Of a DNA stretch of 34,237 nt, positions 5,535-15,608 are shown in pieces. Made by a program: the position numbers and the translations under genes. The notes under the pieces are model-generated. The model was given only the letters and a program-made list of their open reading frames with translations, was not told the DNA's origin and did not search any database. Within the stretch, counting starts at the first letter, position 1; each line of letters starts with the position of its first letter. Source of the stretch: Erysipelotrichaceae bacterium (lineage in GTDB: Bacteria > Bacillota_I > Bacilli_A > Erysipelotrichales > Erysipelotrichaceae); contig JAAWON010000015.1 of NCBI GenBank assembly GCA_022799495.1, positions 1 through 34,237 on the forward strand, in the 5' to 3' direction.

Positions 5535-6635
5535 TGGAACTTTATGAAATAAAACAAGGATTGGACACTCACTCAGAGAAGCTAACTTCTTTGGGTGAGT
5601 CACTTTGACTTAGCTGCGAAACGCTATAAGATTGAGGAATTAACGCAATTAAGTATGGAGGAAAGTTTTTGGCAGGATGCGAATCATGCGCAGTCGATCA
5701 TCCGCCAATTGAATGCGATGAAGGAGATTGTGGAAACATTTGATCGCCTGCATCAAGAACTGGATTCCTTGAAAGAAAGTTATGAGTTGTTAAAAGAAGA
5801 AGATGATGGGGAGTTGTTTCCGCTGGTGGAAATGGATTATCTTGCCTTTGATGAGCAGATTGCGGATTTTGAAATCAAAGTGCTGCTTTCACATGAATAC
5901 GATCAATCCAATGCGATTTTGGAAATCCATCCGGGAGCAGGGGGAACTGAATCCTGTGATTGGGCAGAAATGCTATATCGGATGTATACGCGTTGGGCCA
6001 ATAAAAAAGGCTATAAGGTCAGCGTGATGGATTATCAACCGGGTGATGAAGCAGGGATCAAATCGGTAACTTTCTTGGTGGAGGGAGATAAGGCTTATGG
6101 CTATTTAAAGGCAGAAAAAGGTGTGCACCGCTTAGTGCGTATTTCTCCTTTTGATGCCGGAGCAAGACGCCATACTTCCTTTGCCTCATTGGATGTCATG
6201 CCGCAGTTTCGTGATGAAATTGCGATTGAAATTAAAAGCGAGGATTTAATCGTTGAGACCAAGCGTGCCAGTGGAGCCGGTGGACAGCACATCAATAAGA
6301 CGGATTCTGCGGTACGGATGGTACATAAACCAACCGGTCTTGTCGCAACTTGTCAAAGCGGTCGTTCCCAACATGAAAACCGCGAGGAGGCATTGCGTAT
6401 TTTGAAATCACGCATCTATCAGCGTATGATTGAGGAACAAGAGGCTAAACTGGCGGAAATCAAAGGAGAACAGAAATTGATTGAATGGGGTTCACAGATT
6501 CGCTCTTATGTATTTCATCCTTATTCCTTGGTTAAGGATGTGCGCAGCGGTTATGAGACGAGTCAGATTCAAACCGTTATGGACGGTGATTTGGATGCGT
6601 TTATCTATGCCTATTTGAAAATGCAGATATCGTAA
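5534..6635 (+). CDS. prfB: Peptide chain release factor 2, made by programmed +1 frameshift
   Basis: RF2 releases finished proteins at UGA and UAA. Translation starts at ATG 5534 and reads 24 codons to an in-frame TGA at 5606-5608. A +1 slip on CTT joins it to the long frame that begins GAC (5607) and runs to 6635, giving about 366 residues. In the joined numbering the codon-recognition SPF tripeptide is near 204-206 and the catalytic GGQ at 249-251, matching E. coli RF2. The frame after the slip opens with a GTG at 5595, so an annotation starting there would miss the true N-terminus. The start overlaps the secA stop. A terminator follows the gene. Confidence 0.96.
5593..5609 (+). promoter_or_regulatory. 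prfB +1 frameshift signal
   Basis: An internal Shine-Dalgarno-like GGGTGAG (5593-5599) lies one codon upstream of the slip site CTT TGA C (5603-5609). This is the classic autoregulatory arrangement: when RF2 is scarce, slow UGA reading favours the shift that makes more RF2. Confidence 0.95.
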
Positions 6636-7412: not shown

Positions 7413-7528
7413 AAACCTTAGTAAGTATATCTTTTGACTTTCTCCTTTCGGATCATATCATAAAAAGGTATACAGAAAAGACCATGTAATGTATGAGTTT
7501 CTCTGCCACAAATACGTTATATAAAATC

Positions 7529-7551
7529 GGTGAGAGTTTTCTCACCTTTTT
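7529..7551 (+). terminator. Strong intrinsic terminator, 117 bp after the lipoprotein gene
   Basis: Perfect 7-bp stem GGTGAGA / TCTCACC with a GTTT loop, then five T. It is well separated from the lipoprotein stop, leaving a 3' untranslated stretch of over 100 bases in which I see no open frame with a ribosome site. Between it and 7720 I see no gene. Confidence 0.75.
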
Positions 7552-7719
7552 CTTATGTGGGTGGTAGTTGTTTATAGGGGGGATGGATACGTATTCCCGT
7601 TGGTTTTTGGGAGTGTGTATTTACATTGCTTTATTGAACGATATCAGAGAGATAAAAGAAGCCTGTTATGCGTAAGAAAGAAAAAGCATGGTTTCCCTGT
7701 TTATGTTTTGCGGACTGCG

Positions 7720-9709: not shown

Positions 9710-9738
9710 TTTACAAGGAAAAACAATAATGATATAAT
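9710..9738 (+). promoter_or_regulatory. Sigma-A promoter of the sigma-factor gene
   Basis: TTTACA (9710-9715), 17-bp spacer, TATAAT (9733-9738). It sits 24 bp before the start codon, so the sigma gene appears to be read by housekeeping RNA polymerase rather than solely by itself. Confidence 0.85.
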
Positions 9739-9762: not shown

Positions 9763-10854
9763 ATGGTTCGCATGCAGGCACATGAAATAGAATTGGTCAA
9801 GCGGGTTCAGGCTCATGATGAATCAGCGTTTGATGAATTGTATCACGCTTATTACCAGCGTGCTTTTGCGCTTGCATATCGGCTGACCAAGGATGATGCG
9901 GATGCGCAAGATATTGTGCAGGAATCCTTTTTGCAGGTGCACCGCTCGATTCATAATTTACAAAATCCAAAGCATTTCTATGCATGGCTTCATCGCATCA
10001 TTCATTCAAAATGTGTCAATATGTTTTATGATAATCGCAATGAACATGCAATGGATCCGGAAAAACTAGCAAAGGTGAAAGAATATGAGGAGAAACGGCG
10101 GTATATGTTGCCGCAAGAGGAAAGCAGTTTTGGCAGTGAGCGGGATGTGCTGATTCATTTGATGGCGCAAATGGATGATAAGTATCGTGAGGTATTGGAA
10201 CTTGCTTATTTTGAACAAATGAAACTCAAGGAGATTGCGGGTTATTTGGACTTACCTTTGGGAACGGTAAAAACGAGGGCGCGACGGGCAAAGGAAGAAT
10301 TAAAATTGAAGATTACCCAGTTTGAGGCACAGGAACAGCGTCATATATCGTTCAATGTGGATGTGCTTTTCCCCACGTTGTCCCTGTTCTCCTTATCGCA
10401 GCTTGGCACTTTAGTAAAACAGCGCAGTACGGATTTTTTAATCGGACAGGGAGTGAATGCAGTTTGTGCTGTATCATTTGCCCTACTTGCGGTTTCCGGA
10501 GGTGCCATGGTATGGATGGATCAAGAATCAGCGCAAAACATGGAGGCACCGCGTCAAGAAGCCGGATTTTATCAGGATGATTTTAGTGAAGAAGTCAGGT
10601 TGCCCAATCATGCCTTTGGCAGTTATATGTATGAAGATATTGCGGTGACTTCTTCTCAGCGTGCGTATTATGTTTGTATCAACTGGGCATTGGATTATGC
10701 ACAGATGAGTGGAAAGAGTAAATATGAGATTGTCGCAATCCATGAGATCTATCAAGCATTAAAACAAACCAATGATCGTTATTATCAAATGATACAGGAA
10801 AGAGGTTGGGAAAGGGATTTCCTGAAGTTGTATGATTCAATAAAGCATGAATAA
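9763..10854 (+). CDS. ECF-like sigma factor with a C-terminal membrane span and outside domain
   Basis: Residues 12-95 match sigma-70 region 2 (AFDELYHAYYQRAFALAYRL, then DAQDIVQESFLQVH with the -10-binding helix). Residues 128-185 match region 4, with the helix-turn-helix LKEIAGYLDLPLGTVKTRARRAKEEL. ECF sigmas end there at about 190 residues. This one continues with a linker, a single membrane span (about 229-252) and about 110 further residues that should lie outside the cell. The tail has no clear domain match by eye. Such fusions put sensor and sigma in one chain, so release by proteolysis or local action near the membrane is likely (inference). The start at ATG 9763 has a weak AAAAGAG site; ATG 9772 is possible. 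The terminator overlaps the stop codon. Confidence 0.85.
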   Translation: MVRMQAHEIELVKRVQAHDESAFDELYHAYYQRAFALAYRLTKDDADAQDIVQESFLQVHRSIHNLQNPKHFYAWLHRIIHSKCVNMFYDNRNEHAMDPEKLAKVKEYEEKRRYMLPQEESSFGSERDVLIHLMAQMDDKYREVLELAYFEQMKLKEIAGYLDLPLGTVKTRARRAKEELKLKITQFEAQEQRHISFNVDVLFPTLSLFSLSQLGTLVKQRSTDFLIGQGVNAVCAVSFALLAVSGGAMVWMDQESAQNMEAPRQEAGFYQDDFSEEVRLPNHAFGSYMYEDIAVTSSQRAYYVCINWALDYAQMSGKSKYEIVAIHEIYQALKQTNDRYYQMIQERGWERDFLKLYDSIKHE

Positions 10855-10989: not shown

Positions 10990-11016
10990 TGAAACTTTTT
11001 AAAACTACTTTCTGTC
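10990..11016 (+). promoter_or_regulatory. Possible ECF-type promoter of the surface-protein gene
   Basis: TGAAAC (10990-10995) is followed after 17 bp by TGTC (11013-11016), a spacing and -35 core like those used by ECF sigmas. No good sigma-A promoter is visible in the 260 bp before the surface gene. It lies in a very AT-rich stretch (10900-11000). Confidence 0.35.
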
Positions 11017-11051
11017 CCTTATGTGCATTAGCATCTGATGTGAGTAGTTTT
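11001..11051. repeat. Inverted repeat upstream of the surface-protein gene
   Basis: AAAACTACT (11001-11009) and its exact complement AGTAGTTTT (11043-11051) are 33 bases apart. A further A-T pair extends each arm outward to 10 bp. It could be a leader-RNA stem or a pair of regulator half-sites. Confidence 0.6.
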
Positions 11052-11128
11052 ACACAGTGGATCGCTTTATTAACTAAAACCTCATCATGGTTATGATACG
11101 TATGGATACAAAAGAAAGGGATGATATT

Positions 11129-13297
11129 ATGTTTAAGAAAGTAATGGCCTGTGTTGTATTGTTGGTAATCACTGCACTTTCTATGCGAACACTTTTATAT
11201 AATGAACAGGTGGATGCCGCGGATGGGGATAAATACTATGGGCCGGGCGATGTGTTTGCGGAGACGGGTGTGGATTCTTTTCGCATGGGTGGAATGGATT
11301 GGTACATTGCTTATGCAGATCAAACAAGTGGAAAAGGTATAATATTAGGATTACCGGCAATGAAATCATTAGCAAATATCGATACGTTTTTTTCAAGATA
11401 TGACATTGCATATAAAGATAGTATTGCTAAAGGTACGGGTATTGATAAAATGGGAGAAAAAATCTACGCAATGAATCAGGACGCATTAGGCAGTTTAAAA
11501 CTATTGACAATTGATCAATACAACCTGATTACAAACAATGAGAGTGATTTTACGGCTTTCAATTTTAATGGTTATTGGACAATTGCTGAATTTTGGATGG
11601 AAGGTTACTACGAGGGGGATACAAAACCAATTTTTTATGTTTACGATACGAATTCAGTTTTTGTAGCGGGAGGCACAAAAACATTGTATCCGGGTTATAC
11701 ACATATTGCGTATAATGCAAATGTTAACAATCCGTTTAGTTATCTTGTCAGTGCGGCAGAAATCAATCTTCCTAAAAAATTCCCTGAACCGATTGAGGCG
11801 ATTCAAGCGGACAAAGTTTCAATCGTTAAAAAGTATCCGGATCATACGGTGGATACCATCAATATCACAACGGAAAAAGGTGACGGTCCCTTTCATTTCT
11901 ACATTTATGATACAGATGTAAACGGAGTAGGAAACAGTTCACAGGCAAGTGCCTACTTTCGCTTAGATCATGTGGATACGATGAATGGAACGGCACAAGT
12001 AAATCAAATCAATGCATTGCCTTACGGCGATTATTACTTCAAAGTAAAAGTGGTAGACGAAAGCACCGCAAATAATCTATATAGCGATCCAACAGATATA
12101 ACAAAAGATCCTAATCGTGTAAAAGAAACTGACGTGATACATGTTCAAATTAAAAAAGGTGTTCAAGATCCGCTGCAAGTGTATGGCTCAGCGAGTGATC
12201 GTGATCAAGGAGTGAATGATCAAACTTCATTCAGTTTAGAAAAGACAGAAGCCAGTATTACGCTGTTTCCTAAAGGCGGTTCAAGTTTAATTGCGGATAG
12301 TGAGATTACGTATACGATTGAAAATGATCCCAATCATATCTTGGGAAATACGCCGGGCAAAGGGGCGAGTGCTACATTTACATTGTCGCATACAGTTGGA
12401 AGTGCCACGGTTAAGATCACAAAACCCGGTGGCACCAATTACGATGATGTTAGCACCACTGTAACAATCACAGTTACTTCGATTGCCGATACACCCAGCA
12501 TCACGGCCACCACAGGAGGCAGTGCATATGGATCAGGAGACAAAGTGAATCAAGATGTGATTGTGACATTTAACAAAGGGCCAAACGGAAGTTCTGTCAC
12601 AAATGCTTTGAAACTGAAAACCTTAAGCGGCAATTTAAATCCGCCGACGGACTGGTATAAAACAAGTGGAACGTTATCCTCAATCACACCGGGGGATACG
12701 AAAACAACTCCGGCTAGTAACCAGCATCGCTATATTTGTTACTGGTTATATTATGATGGCTATTTAGAGGATGGGGTAGAATTTCGTGTAGATACATGGA
12801 GAGATGCGCCCAAACTGCAAAATTACAGTGCAACGGCCCAAAATCAAATTACAAACAACAGTAAAGTGTTGTTAGCGGTGCCCAGTGATCAAAGCGGATG
12901 GAACCGATATACGGCAACGATCAGCGATGCATCAGGTACAAAGGTATACAATGAAGAACCGTTGACGATCGGTACCTATACGATTGATGTACAGGATGAA
13001 TATGGGAACACTGCGCAATATCAGTTTGACGTTGTACCGGCATCTGCCAACGCTCCACAACTGCCCAATAATGGCAGCGGGTATTATAAGATTGACGGTA
13101 CCAAGGGGAAAGACAACTGGTATGTGAGCGATGTAAAAATCACACCAACCGGAAAAGATGGCTATGATGAAATCAGTTCTGATGGAGTGACATTCCAAAC
13201 AAATCTGATGTACCAAAATGACGGCAGCCATACCGTGGATTTCTATTGCGAAATTCTACCACCGGAGTGGTTGCGAAAGCGATTCGGATTCAATTGA
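11129..13297 (+). CDS. Large Ig-like surface protein, N-terminal part (frameshifted gene)
   Basis: ATG 11129 is preferred because AAAGAAAGGG lies eight bases upstream. An ATG 42 bases earlier has no ribosome site. The product starts with a signal peptide (MFKKVMACVVLLVITALSM.., cut probably near AADG), then a folded region of about 250 residues. A series of beta-rich bacterial Ig/cadherin-like modules follows, such as the segment with TVTITVTSIADTPSITAT and one with TIGTYTIDVQDEYGNTAQYQF. The frame ends at 13297 after a short nonsense tail, while the protein clearly continues in the -1 frame from about 13246. Intact, it would be about 1,270 residues with a C-terminal anchor. Likely exported by Sec and displayed on the cell surface; ligand unknown. 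Confidence 0.8.
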   Translation: MFKKVMACVVLLVITALSMRTLLYNEQVDAADGDKYYGPGDVFAETGVDSFRMGGMDWYIAYADQTSGKGIILGLPAMKSLANIDTFFSRYDIAYKDSIAKGTGIDKMGEKIYAMNQDALGSLKLLTIDQYNLITNNESDFTAFNFNGYWTIAEFWMEGYYEGDTKPIFYVYDTNSVFVAGGTKTLYPGYTHIAYNANVNNPFSYLVSAAEINLPKKFPEPIEAIQADKVSIVKKYPDHTVDTINITTEKGDGPFHFYIYDTDVNGVGNSSQASAYFRLDHVDTMNGTAQVNQINALPYGDYYFKVKVVDESTANNLYSDPTDITKDPNRVKETDVIHVQIKKGVQDPLQVYGSASDRDQGVNDQTSFSLEKTEASITLFPKGGSSLIADSEITYTIENDPNHILGNTPGKGASATFTLSHTVGSATVKITKPGGTNYDDVSTTVTITVTSIADTPSITATTGGSAYGSGDKVNQDVIVTFNKGPNGSSVTNALKLKTLSGNLNPPTDWYKTSGTLSSITPGDTKTTPASNQHRYICYWLYYDGYLEDGVEFRVDTWRDAPKLQNYSATAQNQITNNSKVLLAVPSDQSGWNRYTATISDASGTKVYNEEPLTIGTYTIDVQDEYGNTAQYQFDVVPASANAPQLPNNGSGYYKIDGTKGKDNWYVSDVKITPTGKDGYDEISSDGVTFQTNLMYQNDGSHTVDFYCEILPPEWLRKRFGFN

Positions 13298-14946
13298 AAA
13301 TTGATCAAACCGCACCTGATGTGCCGGTGTTGAGTATGCAGGTAATCAATAAGAATGCATTCGCCCGTTTTATTAACGCACTGAGTTTCGGTAATTGGAT
13401 GAATCAGGGCGCGAAAGTGACCATGACAAGCAGAGATGCGACCAGTGGCTTGGATCATTTTGAATATATCGAGACAAGCAATGGCACTACGGTGAATAAA
13501 ACAAGCAGTACCGGTATTGTGACCTATCAAAAAGATAGCGAAATCACATTACAGGCAAAAGCATGTGATAAAGCAGGCAACTGTAGTGTCATGAGTGCGA
13601 GTGAAGATCTGATGATTGATTTAAAAGCACCGTCAATCAATGGCGTAAAAGATCAAAGCACCTATAAATATTACTATCTGCCTCGTTTTGTAAGCATCAC
13701 GGATACCGGCAGTGGCTTATCCTATGCGGAATACAAAAAGGATGGAGTATTGGCCGGTAATATACAGGAAAATGTGAATGAAAAAATAAATGGCATTGGC
13801 CAATATGAAATCTATGCGATTGATCATGCGGGCAATGAAGTACGCATACAATTCCAGATTATTCCGTTACCGGATATTGATGATATAGATGGCAGTGATG
13901 AATCCAAAGATATTATTGATCAGGTACAAGAGGAATTAGATGATATTAAAGATAAGATTGATCAGACAGAAAAAGATGAATATGAGCAATGGATTGAGGA
14001 TGCATTGGAGAAATGGGAATCAAGCCGTAAAAAGGTAGTGGAAACAGATGATAAGAGTGCCAAAGTAGAGGGACAAGGTGACACAAGTTTCGATCCCAAG
14101 GTAGAACTCATTGTCGATGAAATCAGTGAAAATGATGTGCCGCGCTTGCCGAAGAAAGCACTTGCAGTCTATGATGTCTATTTACAAAAAGGCAATGTGA
14201 AAGTACAGCCGGATGGCAGCATCAAAGTGTATTTGCCTTATAGCGGACAAGAGGATCCAATTGTATATGAGATTGATGGTAATCAGGTGAAAGAACTCCA
14301 TGTGACACGAGAGGGGAACTTTGTGACCTTTGTGAGCGACTCACTGGTGAAATATGCGATATCCAATACCGCGCAGAAGGACAATGAGGATTTCAATGAT
14401 AAGACTTGTAAACTGGAGGGAAAAGAAATCAATGTGGATACCGATGGCGATGGACTACCTGATTTGAACTTGGATATTGACCATGATTGCATTGCCGATC
14501 TGAATATTGACACTGATTTTGATCGCATTCCCAATATCAACATTGACACCAAAGGAGATGGCAAAGCGGATATTAACATTGATAAGAATGGTGATGGCAA
14601 GGCAGATCTCAATATTGCGATTGTGGATCGTTGGGTACCCAATAAGGACTGCAAATACAATGACTTCGCCTACGATACCGCCGAGGGTTTTATCCCGATT
14701 CTGAATGTGGATGATGATGGTGATGGTGAGCCTGATCGCAACATTGATGATAATGGCGATGGCATTCCTGATCGCAATATTGATCCGGATTGGTTTGATC
14801 GTTATGGCAAACCTAATTCCAATACAAATATCGGTGGAGCATTTACCGGTGATACGACGAAATGGGTGATCTGGTGGATTCTCTTAGTTGTGACAGGTGC
14901 GACAATGGGATATAGCCAGTATCAAAAAAGGAAGCATAGATCATAA
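13246..14946 (+). CDS. Large Ig-like surface protein, C-terminal part (frameshifted gene)
   Basis: This continues the previous protein; the TTG at 13246 is not a natural start and no ribosome site precedes it. In order it has two Ig-like modules (for example TAPDVPVLSM.. and QAKACDKAGNCSVMSASEDLMIDLKAPSI) and an acidic coiled-coil linker (DIDDIDGSDESKDIIDQVQ.., about 13870-14040). A compact domain follows, then 12-residue Asp/Asn loops of the DxDGDGxxDxN type, and at the end a TGDTT motif before a membrane span (WVIWWILLVVTGATMGYS) and basic tail KRKHR. The last part resembles LPxTG-type anchors, but the usual LP is absent (GAFTGD), so sortase use is uncertain. A strong terminator follows. 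Confidence 0.8.
   Translation: MRNSTTGVVAKAIRIQLKIDQTAPDVPVLSMQVINKNAFARFINALSFGNWMNQGAKVTMTSRDATSGLDHFEYIETSNGTTVNKTSSTGIVTYQKDSEITLQAKACDKAGNCSVMSASEDLMIDLKAPSINGVKDQSTYKYYYLPRFVSITDTGSGLSYAEYKKDGVLAGNIQENVNEKINGIGQYEIYAIDHAGNEVRIQFQIIPLPDIDDIDGSDESKDIIDQVQEELDDIKDKIDQTEKDEYEQWIEDALEKWESSRKKVVETDDKSAKVEGQGDTSFDPKVELIVDEISENDVPRLPKKALAVYDVYLQKGNVKVQPDGSIKVYLPYSGQEDPIVYEIDGNQVKELHVTREGNFVTFVSDSLVKYAISNTAQKDNEDFNDKTCKLEGKEINVDTDGDGLPDLNLDIDHDCIADLNIDTDFDRIPNINIDTKGDGKADINIDKNGDGKADLNIAIVDRWVPNKDCKYNDFAYDTAEGFIPILNVDDDGDGEPDRNIDDNGDGIPDRNIDPDWFDRYGKPNSNTNIGGAFTGDTTKWVIWWILLVVTGATMGYSQYQKRKHRS
14431..14787 (+). repeat. 36-bp coding repeats, calcium-loop-like (DxDGDGxxDxN)
   Basis: Five units start at 14431, 14467, 14503, 14539 and 14575. 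Two more start at 14704 and 14740, with a partial unit at 14776. Each encodes 12 residues with Asp at spaced positions and a final Asn-Ile or Asn-Leu, like thrombospondin type 3 or dockerin calcium loops. Some units have lost the central DGD (DHDC, DFDR), showing divergence after duplication. Confidence 0.8.
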
Positions 14947-15074: not shown

Positions 15075-15608
15075 ATGAAACTCTATGTGACAAGGCATGG
15101 ATAGACCGATTGGAATGAACAAGGGCGTATCCAAGGGAAAATAGATATTCCCTTAAATGAACAGGGCAGAGCACAGGCACGCAAAACGCGCGATCTTTTG
15201 GCACACACTCCTTTTGATGTGATCATCACCTCACCATTACAGCGAGCAGTAGAAACTGCCACAATCATAAATGAGGCGCATGGTGTGAAACAATACGAAG
15301 ATGAGCGATTGTCTGAGCGTGGTTTTGGCACATGGGAGGGGGCATCCATATCAGAAGTTGACTTTACTTGTTTTTGGGATGCTCGCTATGAAGATCACTT
15401 TCCTGCTTGTGAGCGGACTACGCTTTTTTATCAGCGCGTGCATGCATTTATCAATGAACTTCGCCAAAGTGAGCGAAAGCATGTTTTGATCGTTGCGCAT
15501 GGGGGTGTATCGCTGCCTTTCTACACCTATTTTCATCCATGTCCTACCGATGGTGATATGCGCAAATATATGTTAAATAACTGTGAAGTGGCTTCCTATG
15601 AGTTATGA
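15075..15608 (+). pseudogene. Histidine phosphatase (phosphoglycerate-mutase-like), broken by an in-frame TAG
   Basis: From ATG 15075, with GAGGTGA upstream, the frame reads MKLYVTRHG, then TAG at 15102-15104, then TDWNEQGRIQG and on without another stop to 15608. The family motif is RHG[EQ]T, so the stop replaces exactly the conserved acidic or amide residue beside the catalytic His. Everything after it is well preserved: SPLQRAVETATII, a central LSERGFGTWEG, and the second catalytic His in VAHGGV. Total length would be 177 residues, normal for cobC/GpmB-like phosphatases. TAG ends other genes in this window (argS, rpoE), so readthrough is not expected. One base change (CAG or GAG to TAG) explains it; a sequencing error is possible. 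Confidence 0.88.

Follow-up and report, generated by a model that had tools for sequence, protein, structure and literature searches.

Sigma factors are the proteins that direct RNA polymerase to genes, and the gene at positions 9763 to 10854 encodes one that appears to be fixed in the membrane with a domain of its own outside, so that the locus raises the question of which gene such a protein would serve and how a membrane-held regulator would come to act on it. The gene lies in a 34,237-nucleotide stretch of Erysipelotrichaceae DNA, which in its entirety is referred to here as the window. The reading that we favor, with a probability of roughly 0.6, is that the product is an anchored ECF sigma factor which, once released by proteolysis, would transcribe the neighboring surface gene from a private promoter. 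The features on which the argument draws are the following.

9710 to 9738, forward strand: sigmaA-like promoter of the sigma gene, TTTACA-17-TATAAT (direct sequence and family scoring)
9763 to 10854, forward strand: predicted membrane-anchored ECF sigma factor, 363 amino acids (open reading frame, Pfam, NCBIfam, and hydropathy)
9838 to 10038, forward strand: sigma region 2, residues 26 to 92 (PF04542, Sigma70_r2, 57.5 bits; cut-off, 24)
10147 to 10308, forward strand: sigma region 4, residues 129 to 182 (PF08281, Sigma70_r4_2, matched at 129 to 180, 52.7 bits; cut-off, 25.7)
10309 to 10446, forward strand: helix following region 4 and juxtamembrane linker, residues 183 to 228 (conserved KxxIxxYExxExxxLxF)
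10447 to 10518, forward strand: predicted single membrane span, residues about 229 to 252 (hydropathy and charge asymmetry)
10615 to 10851, forward strand: predicted outside domain, residues 285 to 363 (AlphaFold2; signature AYY...W...YY...GW)
10990 to 11017, forward strand: candidate private ECF promoter, TGAAAC-N16-CTGTCC (block common to locus L119)
11087 to 13297, forward strand: surface protein, first part, probably starting at 11129 (MFKKVMAC...) and including the signal sequence and the variable head
13246 to 14946, forward strand: surface protein, second part, in another frame, with stalk and C-terminal GGAFTGD-TM-KR tail (OmpL47-type domain)

Architecture and spread of the sigma family

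The window protein has regions 2 and 4 and no region 3, as expected of an ECF sigma factor; it scores 91.5 bits against the sigma70-ECF model TIGR02937 (cut-off, 42.9), and NCBIfam gives it no specific family beyond this superfamily model. The closest solved structures are SigW (5wuq) and other ECF sigma factors, with the match limited to the first 180 positions. Its most hydrophobic 19-mer begins at residue 234 (mean Kyte-Doolittle value, 1.97) and is flanked by a net charge of +1 on the N side and -3 on the C side, with 111 residues after it; this hydrophobicity modestly exceeds that of shuffled tails, 4% of which reach the same value. Across the family, the hydrophobic stretch occupies one common position in all 76 members (start at about residue 219 to 250), with a segment of at least 1.6 on the Kyte-Doolittle scale at that position in 71 of the 76 relatives, and the N-terminal side is the more positive in 70 (mean charge of +2.2 before the span and -1.6 after it). 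Because asymmetry of this kind is the signature of a span with its N terminus inside and its C terminus outside, this is the topology predicted for the family, and we regard the predicted span as convincing at the family level rather than from the window protein alone. The architecture and the topology signature are in this sense properties of the sequences themselves.

Modeled with AlphaFold2 as a separate segment, the last 87 residues (277 to 363) form a beta hairpin followed by five helices with a mean pLDDT of 84.8; in the full-length model, the linker and the membrane segment are poorly predicted (mean pLDDT, 57.9). A Foldseek comparison of the outside domain with the PDB returned no match at an E value of 0.001, and VIA-align against the same database gave Z scores of at most 4.4 and no convincing relative, a result that does not imply a novel fold. 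A Pfam search of the window protein found no SnoaL, FecR-like, or carbohydrate-binding domain, the zinc anti-sigma motif HxxxCxxC (ZAS) between region 4 and the span was found in none of the 76 family members, and no C..C pair was found outside region 2. The neighbors of the sigma gene encode a YitT-type membrane protein, a 283-amino-acid protein in which no known domain was recognized, and the surface protein; no anti-sigma gene adjoins it.

The genome to which the window belongs (1.8 Mb, 87% complete) carries 16 full-length sigma paralogues, every one of them with a C-terminal extension. Six other species of the genus have 15 to 29 each, these counts being model matches at the threshold used: in a set of 41 genomes drawn from the genus, family, and order, the matches number 15 to 29 in each of the seven genomes of this genus and the remainder have 0 to 9 weak matches, and the best match per out-of-genus genome, where it was read, is an ordinary ECF sigma factor without the extension, with one exception (G034). 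The outside-domain profile has matches in 3 of 296 genomes of the class, all three from this genus, and in none of the other 293. No relatives were found in viral contigs, and there is therefore no sign of a phage origin. The pairs of sigma and surface genes are scattered over many unrelated chromosomal sites, beside the genes of EF-Tu, ATP synthase, and others.

The first-pass annotation, made from the window alone, had described complete regions 2 and 4, one span at about residues 229 to 252, and 110 further residues, with no anti-sigma gene adjacent. Pfam, hydropathy, and charge agree with that description family-wide, the absence of a neighboring anti-sigma gene was borne out, and the topology and structure checks that it proposed gave a predicted span at the same position throughout the family and a confidently folded C-terminal domain. 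It had presented the locus as one instance; the instance is real, but it is one of 16 in its genome.

A 17th anchored sigma factor is encoded in the same genome on contig C16 (L037, 2523 to 4259, reverse strand). It has the same linker and a large outside part, in which an Ig-like stretch is accompanied by weak NlpC/P60 similarity below the cut-off (21.4 versus 23 bits), and no surface gene follows it. Judged by its predicted layout, the tethered ECF sigma factor, with other outside domains, extends beyond this genus: a MAG of the Defluviitaleaceae encodes one of 454 residues followed by a gene for a secreted protein (L142, 2085 to 3449), another of 448 residues adjoins a surface protein gene (L214), and L045 and L213 contain tethered ECF sigma factors with large extensions.

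Surface genes and the promoters that precede them

A surface gene follows the sigma gene on the same strand at 16 of 16 loci in the window's own genome, and, over six genomes, a gene for a large secreted protein with a hydrophobic, signal-like start is paired with the sigma gene, again on the same strand, at all 75 loci with enough sequence. The surface proteins of the own genome start in the manner of MWKK..., and complete ones end with GGAxTGD followed by a membrane span and then a charged tail; GGANTGD or GGALTGD before the last span is common to complete surface proteins (for example, in L183, L188, L032, and L036), and with two sortases encoded in the own genome, this tail could be a sorting signal of a non-standard kind. 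Most complete proteins are about 1,650 to 1,840 residues long, with MBG, cadherin-like, RCC1-like, and OmpL47-like domains being recognized among them, and many sigma loci carry two or three tandem surface genes; several of the genomes are fragmented MAGs whose contigs often end inside surface genes, so that surface-gene counts and intactness are approximate. In the window, the surface gene is broken by a one-base frameshift near 13,245 (within 13230 to 13300), for which assembly error and decay cannot be told apart.

The sigma genes and their partners are preceded by different kinds of promoter. A sigmaA-like promoter (score of at least 10) is present upstream of 60 of the 76 family sigma genes, compared with 10.1 in shuffled sequences, whereas the gaps between sigma and surface genes show no excess of it (5 of 75 versus 6.9 in shuffles). 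GAAC or GAAAC, in keeping with the AAC-containing -35 element of ECF target promoters, occurs in 71 of these 75 gaps (43.2 in shuffles), and the fuller pattern GA(A)AC-N12-18-GTC occurs in 31 (1.9 in shuffles). Many ECF sigma factors feed back on their own expression; those of this family appear not to do so, because the fuller pattern was found upstream of none of the 76 sigma genes.

The gaps combine a TGAAC or GAAAC -35 element with a -10 element that varies by sigma clade, as in GAAACCGATTTG...TCCGTCWGATTGAT (L025, L076, L077, L094, and L095), GAACGAAAGAGA...GGAGCATGC (L032, L078, L087, L090, and L092), and GAACTTTTAAA...GGCTCTAATG (the L023 group); some gaps, such as those of L097, L100, L101, L120, and L127, have no plain GAAC or GAAAC match. 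A gap block with at least 25 of 35 bases in common is found in 95% of the sigma pairs that are 50 to 65% identical, compared with 8% of the pairs that are less than 35% identical, and both blocks contain GAAC or GAAAC in 82% and 16% of these pairs, respectively, while the flanks on the same diagonal outside the shared block drop to 41% identity. The shared block is, in our reading, a phylogenetic footprint left by promoters that track their sigma factors. The window promoter block matches that of its nearest relative, L119 (sigma factor 57% identical), at 25 of 35 bases, with GAAACTTTTT and TTTCTGTCC common to the two; in L120 and L123, relatives from the window clade, the best gap block shared with the window falls outside the promoter. 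A search of the own genome for a second copy of the window promoter, with a 27-base pattern of 19 fixed bases, found none at three or fewer mismatches. An inverted repeat overlaps the window promoter, but in AT-rich DNA it could have arisen by chance, and no weight was placed on it.

The pairing of each sigma factor with its neighboring surface gene through the promoter is, in our judgment, well supported as far as sequence comparison can speak to it. The proposal of the first-pass annotation that the next gene is the target gains corresponding support from the 75 of 75 pairings, the ECF-type promoter in the gap, and the clade-tracking -10 element, and the occurrence of the same pair in other genomes, which it had recommended looking for, extends to all 75 loci. 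Its description of that gene as a large surface protein holds, except that the frameshift splits it into two open reading frames; the Ig label found no support, for no Ig domain in the window surface gene reaches the Pfam cut-off.

Proposed mode of action and competing explanations

Transcription from a sigmaA-type promoter would provide constant, low-level synthesis of a sigma factor kept inactive at the membrane, and because the promoter is of this type, inactive sigma factor would always be present. A presumed outside event would then free the cytoplasmic sigma domain, most likely in two steps, in which the outer domain is processed and the chain is afterwards cut within the membrane; the freed domain would bind RNA polymerase and open the adjacent surface-gene promoter, the -10 element of which may be read only by sigma factors of its own clade. 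Each unit of sigma and surface gene would in this way constitute an independent expression slot, with 15 to 29 such units per species of the genus.

The release step is modeled on IutY of Pseudomonas putida (ECF243), a sigma/anti-sigma fusion from which intramembrane proteolysis releases the sigma factor that drives surface receptor genes (PMC5411451, PMC8999054) and in which truncation of the outside part renders the sigma factor constitutive through RseP (PMC5411451). The window family resembles IutY in combining a cytoplasmic ECF sigma factor, one span, and an outside domain in a single chain. In IutY, however, the outside part serves as an anti-sigma domain, which a TonB receptor of the outer membrane reads, whereas the window family is Gram-positive and has an 80-residue domain of no recognized fold, many paralogues, and no receptor; of the ECF243 features, the window protein has no FecR-like Pfam domain and its neighbors are unrelated to a TonB receptor. 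By analogy with release in ECF243, which involves Prc and RseP, release may be effected by a site-2 protease. Genes resembling those for site-2 proteases are present, but they were also found in all 14 control genomes, and their presence is therefore uninformative.

Cleavage would be dispensable if the tethered sigma factor acted uncut, recruiting RNA polymerase while anchored and so coupling transcription of the giant exported protein to the membrane. Such a protein would be in keeping with the shortness of the linker from region 4 to the span (about 45 residues), with the lack of any conspicuous conserved cleavage site, and with the poor conservation of the juxtamembrane and span residues (15 to 16% pairwise identity). 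An anchored sigma factor would, however, need to follow or leave the elongating polymerase. The characterized fusion IutY, moreover, requires intramembrane cleavage for activity (PMC5411451), and we consider action in the uncut state unlikely. Even less probable is the view that the sigma factors are not dedicated to their neighbors, the pairs being mobile cassettes with regulons elsewhere; this would accommodate the many unrelated chromosomal places at which pairs occur, and the regulon search covered one site and one pattern, but the position of the ECF-type block within the gap and its agreement with the sigma clade, together with the single copy of the window promoter pattern at up to three mismatches, argue for a dedicated partner.

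Two further explanations concern the nature of the protein. If the hydrophobic stretch were not a span, the C-terminal domain could be a cytoplasmic regulatory extension of the ECF41/CorE type, which the moderate excess of the window protein over its shuffled tails would permit. The occurrence of the stretch at one position in 76 of 76 members and of charge asymmetry in 70 of 76, the failure of Pfam to detect in the window protein the SnoaL-like C-terminal domain of ECF41, and the lack of a C..C pair outside region 2 combine to make this very improbable. The family could instead belong to a described fused sigma/anti-sigma group and work identically, either ECF243 or ECF52/ECF48/ECF53, the latter including SCO4117 of Streptomyces coelicolor and comprising C-terminal fusions with one or two spans and predicted proteolytic activation (PMC8999054). 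The window family also has a C-terminal span, and the order of sigma factor, span, and outside domain agrees (PMC8999054), but neither the zinc-finger anti-sigma part of ECF48/52/53, the ZAS motif of which is missing in all 76 members, nor the carbohydrate-binding domain of SCO4117 was found, there is no FecR-like domain, and the outside-domain profile is confined to one genus in the class sample; we give this explanation hardly any weight.

For the preferred reading, an anchored ECF sigma factor released to transcribe its neighbor, two other systems offer comparisons. SigI/RsgI of cellulolytic clostridia comprises 16 paralogous sigma factors in P. cellulosolvens, with their own promoter signatures and large secreted proteins (PMC6056542), and the window family is alike in its many paralogous sigma factors per genome, distinct promoters, and large secreted proteins. 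SigI, however, is not an ECF sigma factor, its anti-sigma factor is separate, and SigI genes are under SigI-type promoters, unlike the sigma genes of the window family with their sigmaA-type promoters. In another gut bacterium, Bacteroides thetaiotaomicron, Dma3/ECF21 has an N-terminal sigma domain fused to an envelope-spanning regulator (PMC13088901), but Dma proteins have a beta-barrel that reaches the outer membrane and are found in the Bacteroidota only. In the open-licence papers searched, no description of the anchored-sigma family was found: fused sigma/anti-sigma proteins are already known, and none of these papers was found to describe an expansion within a genus that combines private promoters with swapped heads and inverting terminators.

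Head exchange and probable inversion elements at the surface genes

In eight pairs of orthologues drawn from few, closely related species, the sigma factors are 91 to 98% identical and the downstream DNA is 88 to 99% identical, whereas the first 280 residues of the surface proteins are only 20 to 30% identical. Longer alignments of six orthologue pairs place the onset of divergence near or shortly after the surface-gene start in four and in the leader in two; similarity returns 1.15 to 1.9 kb further on in the four pairs that could be read far enough, at 80 to 90% through the stalk, and in two of these it runs on into the flanking genes. Conversely, near-identical heads (91 to 97% over 450 to 479 residues) lie behind sigma factors that are just 31 to 35% identical, as in L076 and L077 with L111, L102 with L116, and L104 with L107. 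Because heads are exchanged behind fixed sigma factors and the reverse also occurs, each sigma locus can be viewed as a slot with a replaceable head, and replacement would be accounted for most simply by homologous recombination between the conserved signal and stalk regions. What remains in the 579-bp gap at L028 (9777 to 10357), the C terminus of a former surface gene together with a degenerate inversion element, is a recombination scar between the sigma and the surface gene.

We considered whether a sigma factor senses the head carried by its own surface protein and judged this unlikely, since heads swap behind near-identical sigma factors and the outside domain is thus unlikely to be tuned to the head. 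The suggestion that sensing and transcription control are united in one chain therefore fits the predicted topology but probably not as sensing of the surface head.

Gaps between tandem surface genes contain a second type of element, an 88-bp core between the 16-bp sites GTCTAnnnnnGTAGAC and GTCTACnnnnnTAGAC, which are 104 bp apart. In L188, two such elements (7468 to 7587 and 12847 to 12966) have identical sites and cores in opposite orientations, with the terminator on opposite strands; further examples occur in L190, L192, L193, L196, L197, L199, L032, L036, and L248 to L263, and none was found inside the window. The pattern GTAGAC-N86-90-GTCTAC occurs 1 to 26 times per genome of the genus, 68 times in total versus 8 for the reversed control. 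The core has the 14-bp stem and T run of an intrinsic terminator. This points toward the next gene in 15 elements and away from it in 9, with 2 ambiguous, and the elements are probably invertible terminators. Tyrosine recombinases are present, and two are candidates for the invertase: one gene (G003, contig C13, 58956 to 59465) lies within about 0.7 kb of an element (C13, 60082 to 60180), and a recombinase fragment lies between two elements in L251 (310 to 501). The elements recall the cwpV switch of Clostridioides difficile, an inversion element placed ahead of the gene for a large surface protein, where its OFF orientation forms an intrinsic terminator (PMC2784873); both have inverted sites around a core that would terminate in one orientation only, before surface genes. 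A single switch is described for cwpV, compared with up to 26 pattern hits per genome here, and the present elements also differ in position, since they separate tandem surface genes and lie downstream of the putative sigma-driven promoter. In L253 and L257, an inversion element precedes surface genes with no sigma gene nearby.

We would give even odds to the broader proposition that these components form a genus-wide display system in which 15 to 29 anchored sigma factors serve as insulated slots, with recombining heads and with further genes gated by invertible terminators. If so, the giant surface proteins of the cell would be displayed in a manner at once regulated, shuffled, and phase-variable, and a small gut genome would run more than 12 ECF sigma factors in parallel, each assigned a promoter and a payload of its own, in a Gram-positive bacterium and without separate anti-sigma factors. 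Such a set would be a natural panel of related sigma/promoter pairs for specificity studies and orthogonal switches, and the choice of giant surface proteins displayed by gut Erysipelotrichaceae would become testable, with heads, slots, and terminator switches separately traceable.

Two other genes of the window deserve brief mention. A histidine-phosphatase-like gene (15086 to 15608) begins MKLYVTRHG and then has a TAG codon, an in-frame stop right behind the RHG motif, and its listed open reading frame begins later, at 15198. A release factor 2-like gene (5535 to 6635) carries, near 5605, the well-known CTT TGA C site of programmed frameshifting and is otherwise ordinary.
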